From assembly GCA_018398765.1 (NCBI GenBank), contig JAHBMJ010003572.1, positions 12,501 through 70,547 on the forward strand: 58,047 bases of DNA, read 5' to 3'. Below, in pieces: positions 30,501 to 55,926 of this stretch. The notes below the pieces were generated by a model. It ran no database searches. It was not told the DNA's origin and saw only the letters and a program-made list of their open reading frames with translations. Numbering within the stretch: position 1 is the stretch's first letter; each line of letters begins with the position of its first letter. A program made the translations under genes and the position numbers. Source of the stretch: Chromera velia (taxonomy: Eukaryota; Sar; Chromeraceae).

Positions 30501-30526
30501 TCAAGCAAATGGAATTAATTCCAAAC

Positions 30527-30690
30527 GATGTGAGCCAGTGAGACGGAGAGAAAAGAAGCAATGCAAACGATGTGAGCCATGCAGTGAGACGGAGAGAAAA
30601 GAAGCAATGCAAACGATGTGAGGCAGTGAGGAGTACGAGGAGAAAGGAAGCAATGCAATTAAACGATGGCATTGAGGCAGTGAGACGGGC
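30527..30690. repeat. Minisatellite B, ~42-50-nt unit, 3-4 copies
   Basis: Units begin cgatgtgagccagtgagacg and end agaagcaatgcaaa, at about 30527, 30569, 30615 and a partial copy at 30665. The unit differs from minisatellite A but shares short GA-rich pieces, suggesting related slippage histories. Confidence 0.85.
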
Positions 30691-31471: not shown

Positions 31472-33886
31472 ATGAAATCCTTAGCGTCGCGCCTTATCGG
31501 CCGAACTGTTTCTCCTGCTTCGGATACTACAGCCTGGATCAAAAGCACCCGTAGATTGTTCTCTGCTGGGAATGTTCCTCCTCCAGACGATCCTCACTGT
31601 GTCATCGTTGGAGGTGGCGTTGCCGGCGTGTCCCTCTCTTGGCAACTTGCAAAGAGGGGTGTTCCTGTTACACTTCTTGAGAAGTCCAATATGCTCTGTG
31701 CGGGTGCGACCTGGCATGCCGCTGGATTGGTCACTCGTTTCGCTGGAAGTCCCAAACTGAAGAAGCTTCACGTCCGCTCTCTTGAAGTTCTCACTGAGCT
31801 CCATCAGGAAGTGGAAGGAGGCATCAGTTTGCATCTGCCTGGATCCATTCGAATTGTCACGAAAGGAGACTCAGACAGATACAAGGAGGCCAAACAGCAC
31901 ATTGCCATGGCGAAGCTCTATGACGATCCTCGCTACCCTACGCGGATGATCGGGTGAGTCAGAAGGGGGATAGCCGTCTCCCTTTTCTTGCCCTTTCTCG
32001 CAATGCATACCTCTCCCTGTTTTTTTGTTTTGTCCCAGTCAAAATCCCCTTCTCTTCCCAGGGCATCTCGTGATGTCATGTGATGAAATTTCAACGTGCG
32101 CAGCCACGCATCAGCATCTGTTGAAAAAAAATCGACCGCTCTGCAGTCCCGAGGAGATCGCCGCAATGCACCCCCTGATTGACGTTGACCAAGTCGAGTG
32201 CGGAGTCCACACACCCCTCGACGGTGACATCGACCCCACCTCCCTCGTCAACGCCATCGCCTCGAAGGCTCGCGAGTCGGGTCTGGTGAACTTCCAGATG
32301 AGGGCGGAGGTCGAGGGCGTGCGTCGGTTGCCTGACGGGGCCTTCGTCGTTCAAAGCGCAGATGGGAGGGAATTCAAAGGAGGCACCCTCGTCAATGCAG
32401 CAGGTCGGCATGCAGTCGCACACAGTTGATTGGAGGGGAGTGAAGTCGGCGTAAAGCAGTCGTGCAGAGAGAGGAGATATCACGACGAGGAGACCAAAAA
32501 GACAGGAGAAAATTGCTCGACTGTCGAAAGGTGCTTTTGTCCTCTTGACCAGGAAGCGCTTTTCCGTCTGGTGAGGTATTCCTTTGGATCTTCCATCCTT
32601 TGCTCTTCCCTTCCTCTCCTGAATCCATTTGTGAGTCCTGATTTGTCTGTCTATCTCCTGCTGCCCCTCCCTTCCCTTCTCTTCGCAGGTCTGTGGTCGA
32701 AGAGACTGACAGATTTGGTTGACGGGGGGTCGGGTTCTCTCCACCACGCGGCGTTCATCATTGAGCACCAGTACGTGACCACAGAGAGCATCCAGGAAGT
32801 GGCAGACAGGATGGCTGCAAAGGGAGAAAGCGCGAGGCTGCCTGTGCTGAGAGATCTGAAGGGATCTTCTTACATCAGACAGGAATGCAACGGTGAGTTG
32901 TTGGGTGCATGGGTCTCTTTTCTTGCCCTCTTTCGCTTTCGCCCTTAATATGTGGATGTGGGGGTAGGTTAGGGCAAAGGGAGTTCGCTAAGGGGCAACC
33001 CTCCTCTGAATTGGTTGGGTTCTGCTCGGTTGGGTTGCGACTACTTGTGTCTCTTCGTCCGAATTGTGCCACTTTGAATTTTGGCAGTGATAGAAGACTC
33101 TTTCTTCCGCTTCTCTGTTTTCTGCTTGTTCTGACCGATGACTGTCTATTTGTATGGATTGACGGATGCAGGGCTCCTGATCGGTCCTTATGAGAACGAC
33201 TGCCGGTTGGCCCCTCCTGAGTGGAGACAGGCACCCCCTCAGAGCTTCGAGTTTGATCTCTTTCAGGTTCGTTCTGTGGCACTGCTTCCTCCTTTTCTCC
33301 GTCTTGCTTTCTTCTTTTGTGCCTTTTCTTGAGCAGCCCCTCCCGTTCGTTTCGACTTCGGATAAAATCGGAGTGATCTAGCAGATAGTTCTTTGGTGAG
33401 GCATGTCTTGGTAGTCCGCATTCTCCTTCCTTTCCTGTCTTCACCTTCTCTGTATGCGCAGGAGCGTGTGGATGCTATCGAGGACAATATTCTCGCTGCG
33501 ATTGAGTTGATCCCTCGTCTGGGTGAAGTCGGGCTGAAGAAATGCACCAACGGTCCCACAATCTGGGCACCTGACTCTCTCCCTCGTTGCGGGGCCACAC
33601 GCATTCCTGGTCAGTCTGCTTTCTCTCTCTCTCTCTCTCTCTCTGCTGTACGTACCTTGTGTTCTCCTGAATTGCGTGCCTCCCTTTTCTTCTCAGAAAG
33701 CTTCACGCTCGCTTCGCCTATCCTCCTTTCCGTCTCCGATCTGATTCCACCACTAAATGCGGTCATTTCCTTCCTCCCTCCTTTCTGCTAAGTCCCGCTT
33801 TTTGTTTTTCAGCTCCTTCCCTCCCCTTGTGCGCCTGTGTCATGGCATAGAACAACTCTCGCCATCTCCTCCAGATCTCACGACTG

Positions 33887-33920
<34 letters not shown>

Positions 33921-36900
33921 CCTTGTGCTGCAGGATATTTCGACTTCAACACGCTCACGTACGGGATCGCCCAGTCCATCCCTCTGGCTGAGTATCTCTC
34001 TCACATCATCGTCACGGGGGAGCAGCCCTTCGACCTTGCCACTCAGTGCTGCCCTCTGAGACATGGGAAGTGGGCGAACGAACAGGTGGGCGGCATGCTT
34101 GGCCACAGGAAGGGAGGGAGGGAAAGGGGTGTTTGTTGCTCAATTGGAATGCAAACATGGCCTCTTCGTCTCTCCCTCCCCTCCATTGCCGTCCTCTTCT
34201 TGGGCCCTCTCTCTCCATCTGGAACGTTGAGTCGTCGCTGTGCGTGACTGTTGCAGGGAAAACCAATAATGCGCTCTGTGTCTGTCTGCCCGCCTGCCTC
34301 TTGCTTCATCCGCCCGTTTCCTCGTGTGTGGGTGCTTATCACGTTGCGTGTCTTGCTCTTTTTTGTTCGAGGGCGGGCCTCTCTGTGATCGGCTTCAATG
34401 GATGGGGTTTTCATTGACCCTCCCTGCTCTGGTTCTTTGCAGACCACCGCGGCGATGGTTCAGGAGACGTACGCAAAGAACAACACGTGCAGCTACGGGG
34501 CATTCGAGAACAGAAAGGGCGGAAGGGAGTTCCTCGCCTGCAGAAGCGACCCTCTCCACCAGGCCCTCTCCGAGTCCGGTGCCCACTTCGGTCACTCGAA
34601 TGGAGTGGAGAGTCCCGCGTTCTTCCTTGGACCTCGAATGAAGGTGGTCAAGAGCGGTGAGGGGGAGGCTCTGAACGAGTGCAAGCTGGACAACCACGAC
34701 TGGGCGCCCATTGCGAGAGAGGAGATTCGAGCAGTCACAGAGGGGGTTGGAATCTCCCATGCGTCCTTCTCCAAGATCCGCGTCTCCGGTCCGAGAGCAC
34801 ACGAGTTCCTTTCGTATATGACCACTGCCGCCATTCCGAACAAAGAGGGTCCGTGTCGGTTGACTTACGGGTTGACTTCAGCAGGGAATGTGCAGGCCGA
34901 ATTCTCTGTGTCCAAAACAGGGGAGAATGAGTTCTACCTGATCGGGTCCCGTGACTACGCCGCACACGATTCCGAGTGGTTTCGTCGTCATGCCCTCCGT
35001 CCATCGTGGGGAGGGGAGGTGACAGTAGAGGACATCAGCTCAGAGGTGGAGATTCTCCACGTGGCCGGTCCTGCCTCTCGTCTGTTCCTTTCAGAGGCGA
35101 TGAAGGAGACGGACATGAACGAGGACGCGGTGTCGAAACTTGACGAGCTACCCTTCCTCCAGTACATCAACACCCAGGTCGAGGGTGTGCCTGTCAAGTT
35201 GTTCCGTGTGTCCTTCACGGGAGAGAGCGGGTTCGAGCTCCACTGTCCTTCGGGAGAGTCGGCAGCCCGTCTCTGGAGAATGCTTGTCCGTTCCGACGCG
35301 GCAGCTTCTCACGATCTTCGCCCATTCGGCTCCTATGCCCTGAACGCTATGCGGATCGAGAAGGGGTTCAAATTGAGGGGAGACCTTGACTTCGCCCACT
35401 ACACCGAGGCAGGCATTGACGCGTTCATCGGAAAGAAGAAACGAGAGAAGGGGACAGGTGCGTTCCTCGGACAGGACGAGTCGAGAGCGGCTTCTGCCTC
35501 TCGCCAAGCGGCTCTCTTCCGAGTGCACACAGGCGAAGGATTTGAGTGGAGCATTGTGGGGGATTCTCCCATCGTCAACCGCCGCACTGGAGAGACGGTC
35601 GGGTTCACCACCACTGCCGCTCTCGGAGGTCAGACAGGCGAGACTGTTGCTCTAGGATACCTTCACCTCCCCCTGAGGTTCGAGGAGGGAAAGCCAGATC
35701 TGTCCATCGAGTGCTTTGGGAGTGAGTGGGGGGTGGAAGTTCTCCCGTCTCCTCCCGTTGCCGTGAGTGGCCGGAAGCCTTGGGCAGACGTTGAGGCCTC
35801 TCTCAGAAGGTCTGCAGAGACAGAAACAGCCCCCCCCCCCAATGCTGTGAGTGACATCACCCCCCCCCTTGAGCCCCTCTGGATCCGCATTGCCGAACTG
35901 GCAGACATCCCCCCTGGCCGCGCAACGGAGCGCAGAGTCGGGAGGGAATCGGTTGTTTTGATGAGAGGCGAAGAGGGGGTGGACAGCAGCAGCAACAGTA
36001 GCAGCAGTGGCTTGAAAGCCTTCTACAACGTGTGTCAGCACAGAGGGTGCACGCTTCTCTCTCCAGGCGAGTCAGTTAGCATGAGCAAAGGACAGTTGAG
36101 ATGCGGGTATCACGGCATCATGAGCAACTGCAACTGCGACAACCCCGATGATCTGACCATGACCCCCTTCCCCGATGTCAGGGTCATGGGAGATCATGTT
36201 GTAGCTCGGCCCTCCGCCTCCCAGGGGAACCAGCCCCAAGCAGCAGGCTTCCGAGATTCCTACGAGAGGGATTTCTTTGCCGATGTTCTTGCGCCCTTCG
36301 GTCAGGCCCGACCCCTCCCCGCCGCAGCCTACCTAGACGAAAACTTCTACTCCCAAGCGAAGACAGACATCTTCGACAAAGCCTGTGTGTGCATTGGGGT
36401 CGCTGCCGATGTCCGTAATGGGCCCGTCACCCGCATGGTGGCAGACTCCGAAGTCTCCGTCTGGTGGGATCCCGGGAGTGCGTCTTTCCGGGGTACAGCA
36501 ACTCGCCCGGGTCAGGGTGTGCATGACATTCGAGTGGTGCAGGAGGGCTGTGAGCTCTTTGTTCTCCTCCAGGAGGGCCACACTGACGTCTCGATGAAGG
36601 ACGCGATCCAGAAGGCGGGGCTGGAGGACGAACGTCTCAGGGAAGTTCTCCGACCCTACGAACTCGAGAAATGGGAGGTGCAACGCGCACAGGAATTGAA
36701 AGTGTGTCTTGGGGGGGCGTGCATTAATCTATATATGCAACTCCTCAATTGCCCTGGTTTTGATTGAAACCTTCGCAAAAGAAGTCAAGCAACGAGAAAG
36801 TCACAACGAAGCCCTCAGTACCAAAAATGCACCTGTAAAGTTCCACTTCTGCCCGACTTTCTGTATCTCTCTTTTGACCGTCAGTATTTTCCTCTTGGCC

Positions 36901-37614
36901 GATTCTTTCTCATCTTCCTCCTTCTTGCTGCTTTTCTACACACCGAACTTCCCCCCCCCTCCTGCAGATCCCTGCCAACTGGATTCTTTTGGTCGAGAAC
37001 TTCATTGATGCCCTCCACGTTGCCCACATCCATCCAGAGTACGCAGTGCTGGCAGGCACAGCTCGGACGAACATCGCCATGGGAGAGGACGGCAAGGAGT
37101 ACGTGGGCCTGGTCGCAAAGAACATCTGCAGGTCTGCCTGTCTGTGCAGATGTAGGTGTGTGGGTGCACGGAGGGGGGGGAGTTAAATAAAGGCTTGGGA
37201 GTAGGTAGAAATTGATTGTGACTTTGGGCAAAGAGACAAGATGTAAACATTATTTAACATTTGGTTTTTCGTCGGAGAGAAAGTCAAAAAGAAAGCGAAC
37301 CAAAAAGACTTCTTTGTGGACTGATCCCTCCTTCTCTCCAGTTGCTCACTCGCCCCTTTTCCGCATTTCCTCCCAATCAATCAATCAATCAATGGATCCT
37401 GCAGGCCTGAGGTCGTCGCCACGTTGACCCCGGAGCAGTCGGAGGAGCTGGGCTTGATGCATCTGCCTCCCGCCTCCACCCTCCCGGACGATCCTGAGTT
37501 CACCAAGGCTGCCGTGTTCATCGCCCGTTTCCCCAACTGCTTCTTCTTCCTCTTCCCGAACTTCATCTTTCAGGTCNNGGGGGGGGTCTGTCAGTCACTG
37601 AATCACCCTGAGGG

Positions 37615-37648
<34 letters not shown>

Positions 37649-38874
37649 AATGATTGGGGGAAACGGGTTTTGTTGCAGAAAGAAGTTGTCCTGCATGTAC
37701 ATCTCTCTGCTGCCGTCAAAAGCTTTACCCAAGGATGTGTTGAGCTCTACAAGGTACATTCTTGGAGTACCGTCGACTTCTTTTCCTTTCCAGAGACTAC
37801 GCACAAACCATGCAATGACCCCTTCATGTTGCGTCGTTTCTTCTCTTGCATTTTTGAAAACTCTCCTCTCCCCCCCCCCCCCTTTTCGGCCCGCTTGCCT
37901 TGCAGGTCTCTGTAACTCCTCTGAGTGAGAATGTCTCCCACGAGAAGGTTGCCCTCCTGACGCCTCCCGGGCTGTTCAAGCAGTCGGGAGTTTCAGAAGA
38001 GGAATGGAACAAGTACGTCGAGGCGACTTGGAAGACCATGATCAGAGTCAACACGCAGGACGTGGAGGTCTGCACGCGCGTGCAGGAGGGAGTACAGAGT
38101 GAGGGCTACAGGGGGGGCAGGTTCTCCAGGAAGGACAAGCTCATCTTCGCTCTTCACCAGATGGCTGCAAGGAGGATGGTGGCAGGTGCAGAGGCGAGAG
38201 CCGCCCTGCAGAGAGAAACAGTGCAGAACACCCACGAGGGGCCATTCGTCTCTCTGGGAGGCGCTGAACAGGTCAGAGAGAGAGAGGGAGAGAGACGGAA
38301 TTGCATTCGGAATAGAGGGCAGCTGATGCTGCCTTACCGCTCTCTTTGCCCTTGTTTACCAGAGTGGCAATATCACCGAAAGTTGTTTGCTTTTCTTCTG
38401 TCCCGTTGTGCACCTGAGCGAGTTGTGCTGTGCCGGTTCCTTTTGGGTCTTTTCCCTGACCATAGGCGCGCTCATTCTTAATTTTGTTTTCTTCTCCACC
38501 TCTCCCTTGCCGCATCGAACAAAGACTCGGCCCTCCCAATAGACAAAAAAGATAAATGAATGAGTGGCTGGCGGTTTGGATGGATGCAGATGGTCCCAGT
38601 GCTCCCCTTGGAGACTCCCGACACGGGGACGTCCCCCTGGTCTCCTCAGCCCCCTCAGGTCCAGCCCTCCTTCCCTCCCCAGGGCATCCCCCCACCCTCC
38701 CGCCTCCCTCCCGCCTCCTCCCACCAGCAGCAGGTCAGATTCCTCTCCGGATCCCCCCCCGCTTCCTCTGCTTCTTCCTCTTCTTCTTCTTCCGCTCTGC
38801 CTGGAGGGTCGCGTTCCGTCCATTCGCCTGCCGGTGGGATTGGAGGCAACTCTGGGAAGCCGTCTGAGGAGTGA
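31472..38874 (+). CDS. DMGDH/sarcosine dehydrogenase-Rieske oxygenase fusion (11 exons)
   Basis: Exons 31472-31953, 32147-32403, 32689-32892, 33172-33266, 33462-33609, 33934-34085, 34443-36701, 36968-37131, 37405-37573, 37906-38271 and 38590-38874 join in phase to 1526 residues. An Arg-rich start ending TRRLFSAG looks like a mitochondrial presequence. GGGVAG (47-52) is the FAD site, and H82 in TWHAAG corresponds to the flavin-linked His of dimethylglycine dehydrogenase. DGDIDPTSL, NAAGLW, VLRDLKGS and LLIGPYEN also match that family. GcvT-type folate domains fill about 450-900. A Rieske centre follows (C977-x-H979, C1000-x2-H1003), then an oxygenase domain with VENFIDALHVAHIHPEY (D1213, H1216, H1221) and QDVEVC (D1362), as in glycine betaine monooxygenases. 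Expected chemistry is sequential N-demethylation of glycine betaine and dimethylglycine; this is inference. No reductase domain is present. The Pro/Ser-rich last exon is least certain. Confidence 0.9.
37574..37905 (+). other. Intron 9 of the fusion gene: cryptic exon, AG repeat, 2-base gap
   Basis: The intron contains two undetermined bases (37577-37578), a (GA)n run (about 37616-37647) and a 75-nt segment, 37679-37753, flanked by a good acceptor (ttgcag) and donor (gtacat). That segment is phase 0 and stop-free (KEVVLHVHLSAAVKSFTQGC and 5 more). Leaving it out keeps the spacing between FPN and the TPL segment expected of betaine-type oxygenases, so I treat it as intronic or an optional cassette. 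Confidence 0.5.
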
Positions 38875-38953: not shown

Positions 38954-39082
38954 GAGCAAAACACAAAAGAAAGAAACGTGCACGATCAAAGGAGCAAAAC
39001 ACAAAAGAAAGAAACGTGCACGATCAAAGGAGCGAAACACAAAAGAAAGAAACGTGCACGATCAAAGGAGCAGAACACAAAT
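38954..39082. repeat. 38-nt tandem repeat, 3.4 copies
   Basis: The unit gagcaaaacacaaaagaaag plus aaacgtgcacgatcaaag repeats almost exactly, about 80 nt after the stop of the fusion gene. It probably lies in its 3' UTR or just beyond. Confidence 0.95.
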
Positions 39083-54480: not shown

Positions 54481-55926
54481 TCAGTCCGACACGGCCACAT
54501 CGATTTTCCACTTTGCGTCCTTGAGTCTCTCCTCGAGGGTCCCCCCAAACGCCGAGAGGGGCGTCAGGTACCCGACAGTTTTCGGGGTGTCCTCCTTCGG
54601 GAACGCCACGCAGAGCGCCGACTCCACGGCCATCTTCGCAGTCTCCTTATACCCAGGGTCCCCCTCGTGGGAGGAGACTGCAAGAACGGTGCATGCATTC
54701 AGCCAACAAACCAATCAATCAACCAGACACGCAGTCTCCATATGCCAGGGGTCCCAGTCGTGGGAGGAGACTGCAAGAACGGTGCATTCATTCAGCCAAC
54801 AAACCAATCAATCAACCAGACACGCAGTCTCCTTATACCCAGGGTCCCCCTCATGGGAGCAGACTGCAGGCAAGAACGATCGGACCAACAAACCAATTAA
54901 TCAACCAGATAAAGTAGCAGTCGAACTCACGCACACGCACTCACACAAAGAAAGAAAGAAAGAAAGAAAGAAAGACAGACAGACAAACAGACAGACAGGC
55001 AGACAGACAGACAGACAGACAGACAGAAAGAGAAAAAGGGACACACACAAAAGAAAGTACACAGCTCATGAAGAGGAGGACCGAATTCCCCCCATCTATC
55101 TCCTTTTGCAGGTGTACGTGTCTGACTGACTGACTGAATGACTGACTTTGTGCGATCACCTTGCGTCCGTTGTGTGCGACCCCAGCTGACTTGAGGATCA
55201 TGTACCCGGTGTTCATCAGCTCCTCCGAGGGGCCGGAGCCTGCAGGCAGGCAGTCATGCACTCTCTTTCTCTCTCTCGCGCGCGCGCACATACAACGGAA
55301 GGGAAGGGGGGGGATCTTAGGGAGGAGCGTCGTTCTAGCTAGTTCGTTGCATATCATGCGAACGCATCGGTGCGCAAAGGCACCATGAAGGACTAACTAG
55401 CTAAAGTGGGGCAGCTGTCGACTCAAAAACGACTCTCACACAACAAGGAAGGCAAAAGCAGTTCCCTCCAGACAGAAAGGCGCCACCTCCGACTCATTCA
55501 AGCAAAAGCTCCAGACACCCCCCCCACCCCCCCACCCCCACCCCCACACACAGACACAGAGAGAGACAGGGAGGGAGCAAGGAAGAAACAAGGGCGCGAC
55601 AGGCGAAGCAGTTGTACAAGCTTCCGGTTGTCGGTCAAGTATCCTGCAATTGCGAGGTCCGTCCTGTGTGAAAAGAAAGAAAGAAAGAATCTCGAGCAGG
55701 GAAGCACTCACCCTGTGGCATCAATTTCCGGAGAAGCCAGCGGGCAGGAGGGAGGAAGACGAGGATGCCGAACGCCAGGGCGAGAAACCCGCCTGCCAAG
55801 TAGGCAATGAGGCCGTTGGGCACCTTCATGCTCTCGAAGTACTGAAAATTTTTGCCGTACATCTCGGGAAGCCGGGAGGCAGTGCCTCTATACACACACA
55901 CACATACACACACAGACGCGCGCGCG

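Follow-up and report, generated by a model that had tools for sequence, protein, structure and literature searches.

A dimethylglycine dehydrogenase-type flavoenzyme fused to a rearranged Rieske oxygenase in Chromera velia

The 58,047-nucleotide stretch of the Chromera velia genome analysed here (contig JAHBMJ010003572.1, positions 12,501 to 70,547; hereafter the window) holds on its forward strand a gene predicted to encode one chain in which a flavoenzyme of the dimethylglycine dehydrogenase (DMGDH) type is followed by a Rieske [2Fe-2S] domain and a non-heme iron oxygenase. This fusion is real and recurrent, and apparently undescribed. What is new in the version of this genome is the predicted internal rearrangement of its Rieske part, which is unusual. 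The gene comprises the following features, numbered by position in the window, all on the forward strand.

31472..38874, +, complete gene with 11 coding exons (from GT-AG introns, an open frame and codon log-odds)
31472-31953, 32147-32403, 32689-32892, 33172-33266, 33462-33609, 33934-34085, +, exons 1-6
34443-36701, 36968-37131, 37405-37573, 37906-38271, 38590-38874, +, exons 7-11
31472..31570, +, probable mitochondrial presequence, first 33 residues (by eye)
31598..34001, +, DAO domain (FAD-dependent oxidoreductase; FAD, flavin adenine dinucleotide), residues 43-418, over six exons (Pfam 5e-44)
31715-31717, +, His82 at the flavin-linking position, TWHAAG (alignment)
34554..35381, +, GcvT-type folate-binding domain (GCV_T), residues 484-759 (Pfam 3.5e-47)
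34899-34901, +, Glu599, aligned with Asp552 of dimethylglycine oxidase 1pj5 and the Glu of DMGDH 4pab
35553..35756, +, stretch resembling the GCV_T_C barrel, residues 817-884 (Pfam score under the cut-off)
35880..36137, +, intact Rieske [2Fe-2S] domain (Rieske 1), residues 926-1011 (Pfam 3.3e-10)
36033-36041 and 36102-36113, +, Rieske CxH and CxxH
36273..36419, +, N-terminal segment of the oxygenase, residues 1057-1105 (profile 16-64)
36420..36632, +, where the oxygenase's own Rieske domain would lie, residues 1106-1176 (alignment only)
36633..38271, +, oxygenase catalytic domain (end of exon 7, 36968-37131, 37405-37573 and 37906-38271)
37007-37009, +, bridging Asp1213
37016-37018, 37031-37033 and 38059-38061, +, iron ligands His1216, His1221 and Asp1362
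38590..38874, +, Pro/Ser-rich C-terminal exon, the least certain (open frame and GT-AG boundary only)

With GT-AG splicing, the frame is open from the ATG at 31472 to the stop at 38874 and yields 1526 amino acids (estimated mass roughly 165-170 kDa), the length claimed in an earlier note on this DNA, here obtained without a candidate exon at 37679-37753. This exon was left out because its inclusion lowers the oxygenase profile score from 179 to 157 bits and its codon content is intron-like (-0.31 per codon). The start of exon 2 at 32062, which required a non-GT donor, was replaced by 32147, so that intron 1 becomes GT-AG. The codon score was trained on the gene's own DMGDH part and is independent for the remaining gene only; it was 0.13 per codon or more above background in all but two of the 31 segments (each of at most 50 codons). 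Those two, the first segment (-0.03) and residues 951-1000 (0.01, positive after), gave values near zero; the 30 intron frames averaged -0.26, with a maximum of -0.05. The GcvT domain, the Rieske domain and the start of the oxygenase all lie within one uninterrupted exon of 2259 bases (34443-36701), which agrees with the earlier argument that the fusion is no artefact of joining exons. A mitochondrial presequence on the predicted protein is plausible.

The DMGDH-type half covers the full length of the known enzyme: residues 39-887, with DAO and GcvT, match the solved structure 4pab with an E value of 2.6e-112. This match, the initial Pfam scan, the NCBIfam scan of the window's protein and the match to carnitine monooxygenase CntA were computed on a model still containing the doubtful exon. 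His82, His273 (in HQYV), Tyr308 and Glu599 align with matching residues of 4pab and of dimethylglycine oxidase 1pj5, their counterparts in 1pj5 being the covalent-FAD His, H225, Y259 and D552; we presume for them the roles of covalent FAD attachment and active site. The flavin-linking His of the earlier note is thus present, as His82. Compared with 4pab and 5l46, which we take to be rat and human dimethylglycine dehydrogenase, the DAO plus GcvT layout and all four residues are kept, but the known enzyme stops after the GcvT part, whereas the window's protein adds a Rieske domain and an oxygenase, and its GCV_T_C stretch scores 19.3 bits, under the Pfam cut-off of 25.9; FAO_M was not listed for it. 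In a quick tree the DMGDH half falls in a group of 51 rows, adjoining P0018, and a separate group of 23 rows includes an animal (Lineus) and bacteria.

The second half carries a complete set of metal ligands. The Rieske ligands C977/H979/C1000/H1003 (CxH...CxxH) and the 2-His-1-carboxylate iron site (H1216, H1221, D1362) are present, and Ring_hydroxyl_A is matched at 3.4e-20, or 1.8e-26 once the doubtful exon is removed. Pfam, the 4pab match and the ligands agree with the earlier claim of FAD, GcvT, Rieske and non-heme iron oxygenase parts in one chain. The earlier wording, Rieske and then oxygenase, names two parts that are both present but hides how they are arranged. A profile built from 17 oxygenases, which is not fully independent since these were found with the window's own oxygenase half, matches in three pieces: residues 926-1004 correspond to profile positions 53-119, residues 1057-1105 to 16-64 and residues 1177-1403 to 176-384. 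Profile positions 53-64 are thus used twice, and in residues 1057-1105 the beginning of a Rieske domain occurs for the second time. In the usual order the N-terminal segment is followed by the Rieske and catalytic domains; here the intact Rieske domain precedes the N-terminal segment. No CxH/CxxH cluster ligands occur in the oxygenase's normal Rieske place (region about 1057-1176), and roughly 45-50 residues of the cluster-binding piece are missing from the alignment at residues 1106-1176. Comparison with the ordinary oxygenase of a Candidatus Microthrix locus (L025), found by pattern and tblastn, gives the same result, the three pieces falling along it in a different order. Nor could splicing bring back the usual order, since exon 34443-36701 contains the Rieske domain together with the N-terminal segment and the stretch that has no ligands. 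The oxygenase half is rearranged in the predicted protein, with its intact Rieske domain placed between flavoenzyme and oxygenase.

The CxH/CxxH motifs and the 2-His-1-Asp site are common to the group V Rieske oxygenases CntA (6y9c), Stc2 (3vca) and GbcA. CntA is the closest solved match both of the window's oxygenase half and of that of P0042, the one other fused oxygenase tested. The window's version differs from this group in its fusion to DMGDH, in a cluster-bearing Rieske domain lying outside and before the oxygenase, in lacking a CxxC pair, in its bridging Asp and in a Phe at CntA position 203.

The architecture recurs, as a search for homologues with the DMGDH half found it in at least nine other database proteins. 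This search scored 8000 candidates, of which 1600 passed an E value of 1e-10, and nine of the best 120 of these 1600 relatives combine GCV_T, Rieske and Ring_hydroxyl_A; DAO is also present in eight, P0068 starting inside the FAD part. The named records come from Chrysophaeum taylorii (P0041), Aureococcus anophagefferens (P0064) and Aureoumbra lagunensis (P0066, taxid 44058), the first and last of which belong to the Pelagophyceae, as presumably does A. anophagefferens; the other six are P0039, P0042, P0048, P0051, P0054 and P0068. Two, P0066 and P0051, bear transcriptome-style names. All nine share the DMGDH-oxygenase order in one chain, but theirs is one continuous oxygenase match (271-390 bits) with a bridging Glu and with Rieske and iron ligands present, P0064 missing a piece near its Rieske end, whereas in the window the Rieske region is doubled and split; the version of C. 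velia is thus a rearranged form. With residues 905-1457 as query, the doubtful exon included, none of 7999 candidates was a long homologue at E <= 1e-3. This negative was misleading, probably because of strong divergence of the oxygenase half, since the DMGDH half did retrieve the fusions. A scan of genome contigs with an alignment led by the truncated segment gave a single locus. The author of the earlier note was not aware of a described natural fusion, and among the open-licence PubMed Central papers listed we found none whose title or abstract start describes a DMGDH-Rieske oxygenase fusion; the fusion is not unique, given its other occurrences.

A single clade of the fused DMGDH halves was rejected in a quick tree (p-AU 1e-32), and one clade of the fused oxygenase halves was not (p 0.35, with long branches); these trees are compatible with a single old fusion followed by losses as well as with repeated fusion. 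Six of the nine other fusions (P0041, P0042, P0048, P0054, P0066 and P0068) have an R-x-[LMF]-S-T motif in the linker from GcvT part to oxygenase. We take it to resemble a mitochondrial presequence cleavage site, and it is perhaps the relic of a formerly separate mitochondrial oxygenase. The unfused records P0046, P0024, P0025 and P0032 have tails unlike the GcvT_C ends of P0018-P0020 and, judged by eye, may be mis-predicted or truncated.

The genes around related bacterial oxygenases show the same two activities side by side (L025, L027, L028, L065, L073, L076), there as separate polypeptides, with the oxygenase gene first in L025, L027, L028, L065 and L073. The earlier note had described demethylation and dimethylglycine oxidation as separate enzymes in bacteria, which holds for the polypeptides, yet they are linked in gene clusters. 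At L025, the oxygenase gene is followed by SoxB- and SoxA-like genes, whose scores stay below the curated cut-offs (498 bits against 529, and 808 against 1164). Among plasmids, 937 records match P0006, and five of these regions were examined; the window's own oxygenase half has no match there. Two Phaeobacter plasmids (L027, L028) carry together the oxygenase, an aldehyde dehydrogenase (ALDH) and an 806-residue protein of DAO, FAO_M, GCV_T and GCV_T_C composition that is 29-30% identical to the window's DMGDH half. In the phylum of L025, which we take to be the Actinomycetota, 396 genomes were surveyed at E <= 1e-60, and the oxygenase was found in 17 of them, at 18 places. Ten of the 18 places have a GCV_T match no more than 10 kb away, or 9 of 17 without the genome of L025. 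With 119 such matches in a total of 56.7 Mb (from rounded sizes), chance would give about 0.8 over 17 places; because of the relatedness of the genomes, these counts are not independent trials. Within 6 kb, tblastn gave a full-length DMGDH-type match at three of the 18 places (L065, L073, L076), a SoxB-like match at five (L066-L069 and L072, the last being L025 again), GcvT alone at L063, weak flavoprotein matches only at L060 and L062, and none at the other seven. The oxygenase and DMGDH-type frames overlap at L073 and are two bases apart, stop to start, at L065, with frame starts taken as the first ATG or GTG. A search for a reductase near the bacterial oxygenase loci gave no match, a weak negative as it used one query only.

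L073:4364-11131 holds an MTTB methyltransferase, the Rieske oxygenase, the DMGDH-type enzyme and a creatinase-family protein, and L063:5968-12287 holds, in one run on one strand, a Rieske oxygenase, an FAD oxidoreductase, a GcvT-like gene and a formate-tetrahydrofolate (THF) ligase. MTTB methyltransferases are neighbours of the oxygenase in both L073 and L076. PMC12478193 links pfam06253 methyltransferases to glycine betaine demethylation.

In the 177.8 Mb C. velia assembly (4040 contigs), Ring_hydroxyl_A has one match, this gene, and GCV_T two, one of them this gene; both counts come from exon-by-exon matching and are lower bounds. With this gene included there are 13 Rieske and 16 DAO matches. 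NAD_binding_1 is matched six times and Fer2 four times, never on a shared contig. One Phaeobacter reductase found no match in the genome, and this single query carries no weight on the absence of a reductase. An S-methyltransferase-like gene (L022) is a candidate for a separate betaine-homocysteine methyltransferase, which the genome may possess.

Considering the architecture, the conserved residues and the recurrent pairing, the function in outline is probable, and we favour, with a confidence close to evenly divided, a single and probably mitochondrial chain that would demethylate a trimethylammonium betaine twice in succession, glycine betaine being the most likely substrate. The Rieske/non-heme iron half would hydroxylate one N-methyl, formaldehyde leaving and dimethylglycine remaining; the flavin half would then turn dimethylglycine into sarcosine by oxidation, and the GcvT domain would capture the second methyl as 5,10-methylene-THF. 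Since the chain's only intact cluster site is in the domain that separates flavoenzyme from oxygenase, the iron probably receives its electrons from this upstream Rieske domain and not from a cluster in the usual place. Conversion of glycine betaine to sarcosine, as proposed earlier, is plausible on sequence grounds, and capture of formaldehyde as methylene-THF can be inferred for the dimethylglycine step only; formaldehyde from the oxygenase step would need to reach THF unaided.

Several observations weigh against this proposal. GbcA (NF058607) is the top NCBIfam oxygenase model for the window and four fusions tested, though they score only 37.4 and 134-167 bits, respectively, against a cut-off of 670. 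CntA position 203, according to PMC7948474, is Tyr or Phe in carnitine, choline and benzalkonium oxygenases and Asn in demethylases of glycine betaine and proline betaine (group Vb, with GbcA, BmoA and Stc2); it is Phe in the window and in eight of the nine other fusions, Tyr in P0051, and Asn in Stc2 3vca. The CxxC pair reported for some group V enzymes in PMC10952381 and PMC7948474 is absent from the window's oxygenase half in the alignment. The ALDH of the Phaeobacter clusters fits an aldehyde-forming oxygenase. A DMGDH-type gene was seen in only two of the five plasmid regions, L026 having a DAO protein without a DMGDH match and the unannotated L029 and L030 no such match; no GCV_T match lies within 10 kb at eight of the 18 survey places, four of these on contigs shorter than 6.2 kb. 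The closest DMGDH relatives, P0018-P0020, are unfused as recorded (54-59% identical; P0018 60% over 827 columns), and the oxygenase half has a branch of 3.53 in quick trees, compared with 0.5 for the DMGDH half. The earlier assignment to a betaine-type Rieske oxygenase thus stands as to the quaternary-ammonium type but not as to GbcA: gene context argues for demethylation, while residue 203 argues against the GbcA type. Glycine betaine itself as the substrate we would credit with a chance of about one half.

The same residue 203 groups the window's oxygenase with the carnitine, choline and benzalkonium enzymes, and so bears on a doubtful but real alternative, that the oxygenase acts on choline, carnitine or another algal betaine, its product serving the DMGDH half as substrate unless that half works independently on dimethylglycine. 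The fusion would then connect steps of one pathway, though not the pair from glycine betaine to sarcosine. This would also suit the CntA resemblance, the name 'Choline monooxygenase' given to P0041 in UniRef and the ALDH gene adjoining the Phaeobacter oxygenases. The DMGDH-type, SoxA/SoxB-like, MTTB and formate-THF ligase neighbours, in contrast, point to N-demethylation and C1-folate chemistry and, to our knowledge, oxidation of choline or carnitine gives no DMGDH substrate directly. Rather improbable is a degenerate or regulatory oxygenase half without oxygenation, only the DMGDH half working, which the missing ligands in the normal Rieske place and the very long branch would fit. The bridging residue is Asp in the window and Glu in all nine other fusions, and E205D of CntA is cited as inactive in PMC7948474; a conserved bridging Asp is nevertheless usual in Rieske oxygenases according to PMC12445004, and the three iron ligands and four upstream Rieske ligands are kept, in a frame open through both.

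The linker motif of the six other fusions could also mark a precursor cut into two enzymes in the mitochondrion. We consider this very unlikely, as the window's linker has no such motif by eye and six of the nine other fusions start directly with the FAD-binding motif and show no obvious presequence (P0066 and P0068 being incomplete at the start and P0039 beginning with a non-Met residue). An artefact of assembly or gene model, towards which a two-base N run at 37577-37578 might hint, is hardly credible: the run is inside an intron, the 2259-base exon is uninterrupted through GcvT, Rieske and oxygenase start, and the fusion recurs elsewhere, transcriptome-style records included.

The source of electrons allows a further and more speculative step beyond successive demethylation. 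A 2025 review (PMC12445004) describes Rieske oxygenases as passing electrons about 12 A between subunits and reports that no self-sufficient Rieske oxygenase system has been identified yet. The fusion might, although we think it unlikely, be a Rieske oxygenase that is self-sufficient in redox terms: the flavin would feed it through a displaced, mobile Rieske domain, and it would need no NAD(P)H reductase. The two electrons of dimethylglycine would pass via the covalent flavin and the Rieske cluster and pay for the next N-demethylation, with the net reaction betaine + O2 + THF -> sarcosine + methylene-THF + formaldehyde. The electron count balances, two leaving dimethylglycine and two entering the oxygenase, so that nature may offer, in this fusion, the self-sufficient Rieske oxygenase that is being sought.

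The remainder of the window gave little. Among its other long open reading frames (20 scanned against Pfam) there was one weak Nop14 match, below the cut-off, and tRNA and Rfam searches of the window found no match. Tandem repeats of 46 bp (30522-30658) and 38 bp (38954-39081; 3.4 copies, 96% matches) lie upstream and just downstream of the gene, respectively, and a 93-bp repeat of about 2.5-3 copies lies at 54637-54909.

In the sea, glycine betaine is an important osmolyte, whose breakdown by eukaryotic algae is, as far as we know, little described. A one-chain enzyme of the kind proposed would tie betaine breakdown to the supply of folate one-carbon units. Should the protein of the window prove functional, the displacement of its Rieske domain would probe how rigid the inter-subunit electron transfer over ~12 A has to be.

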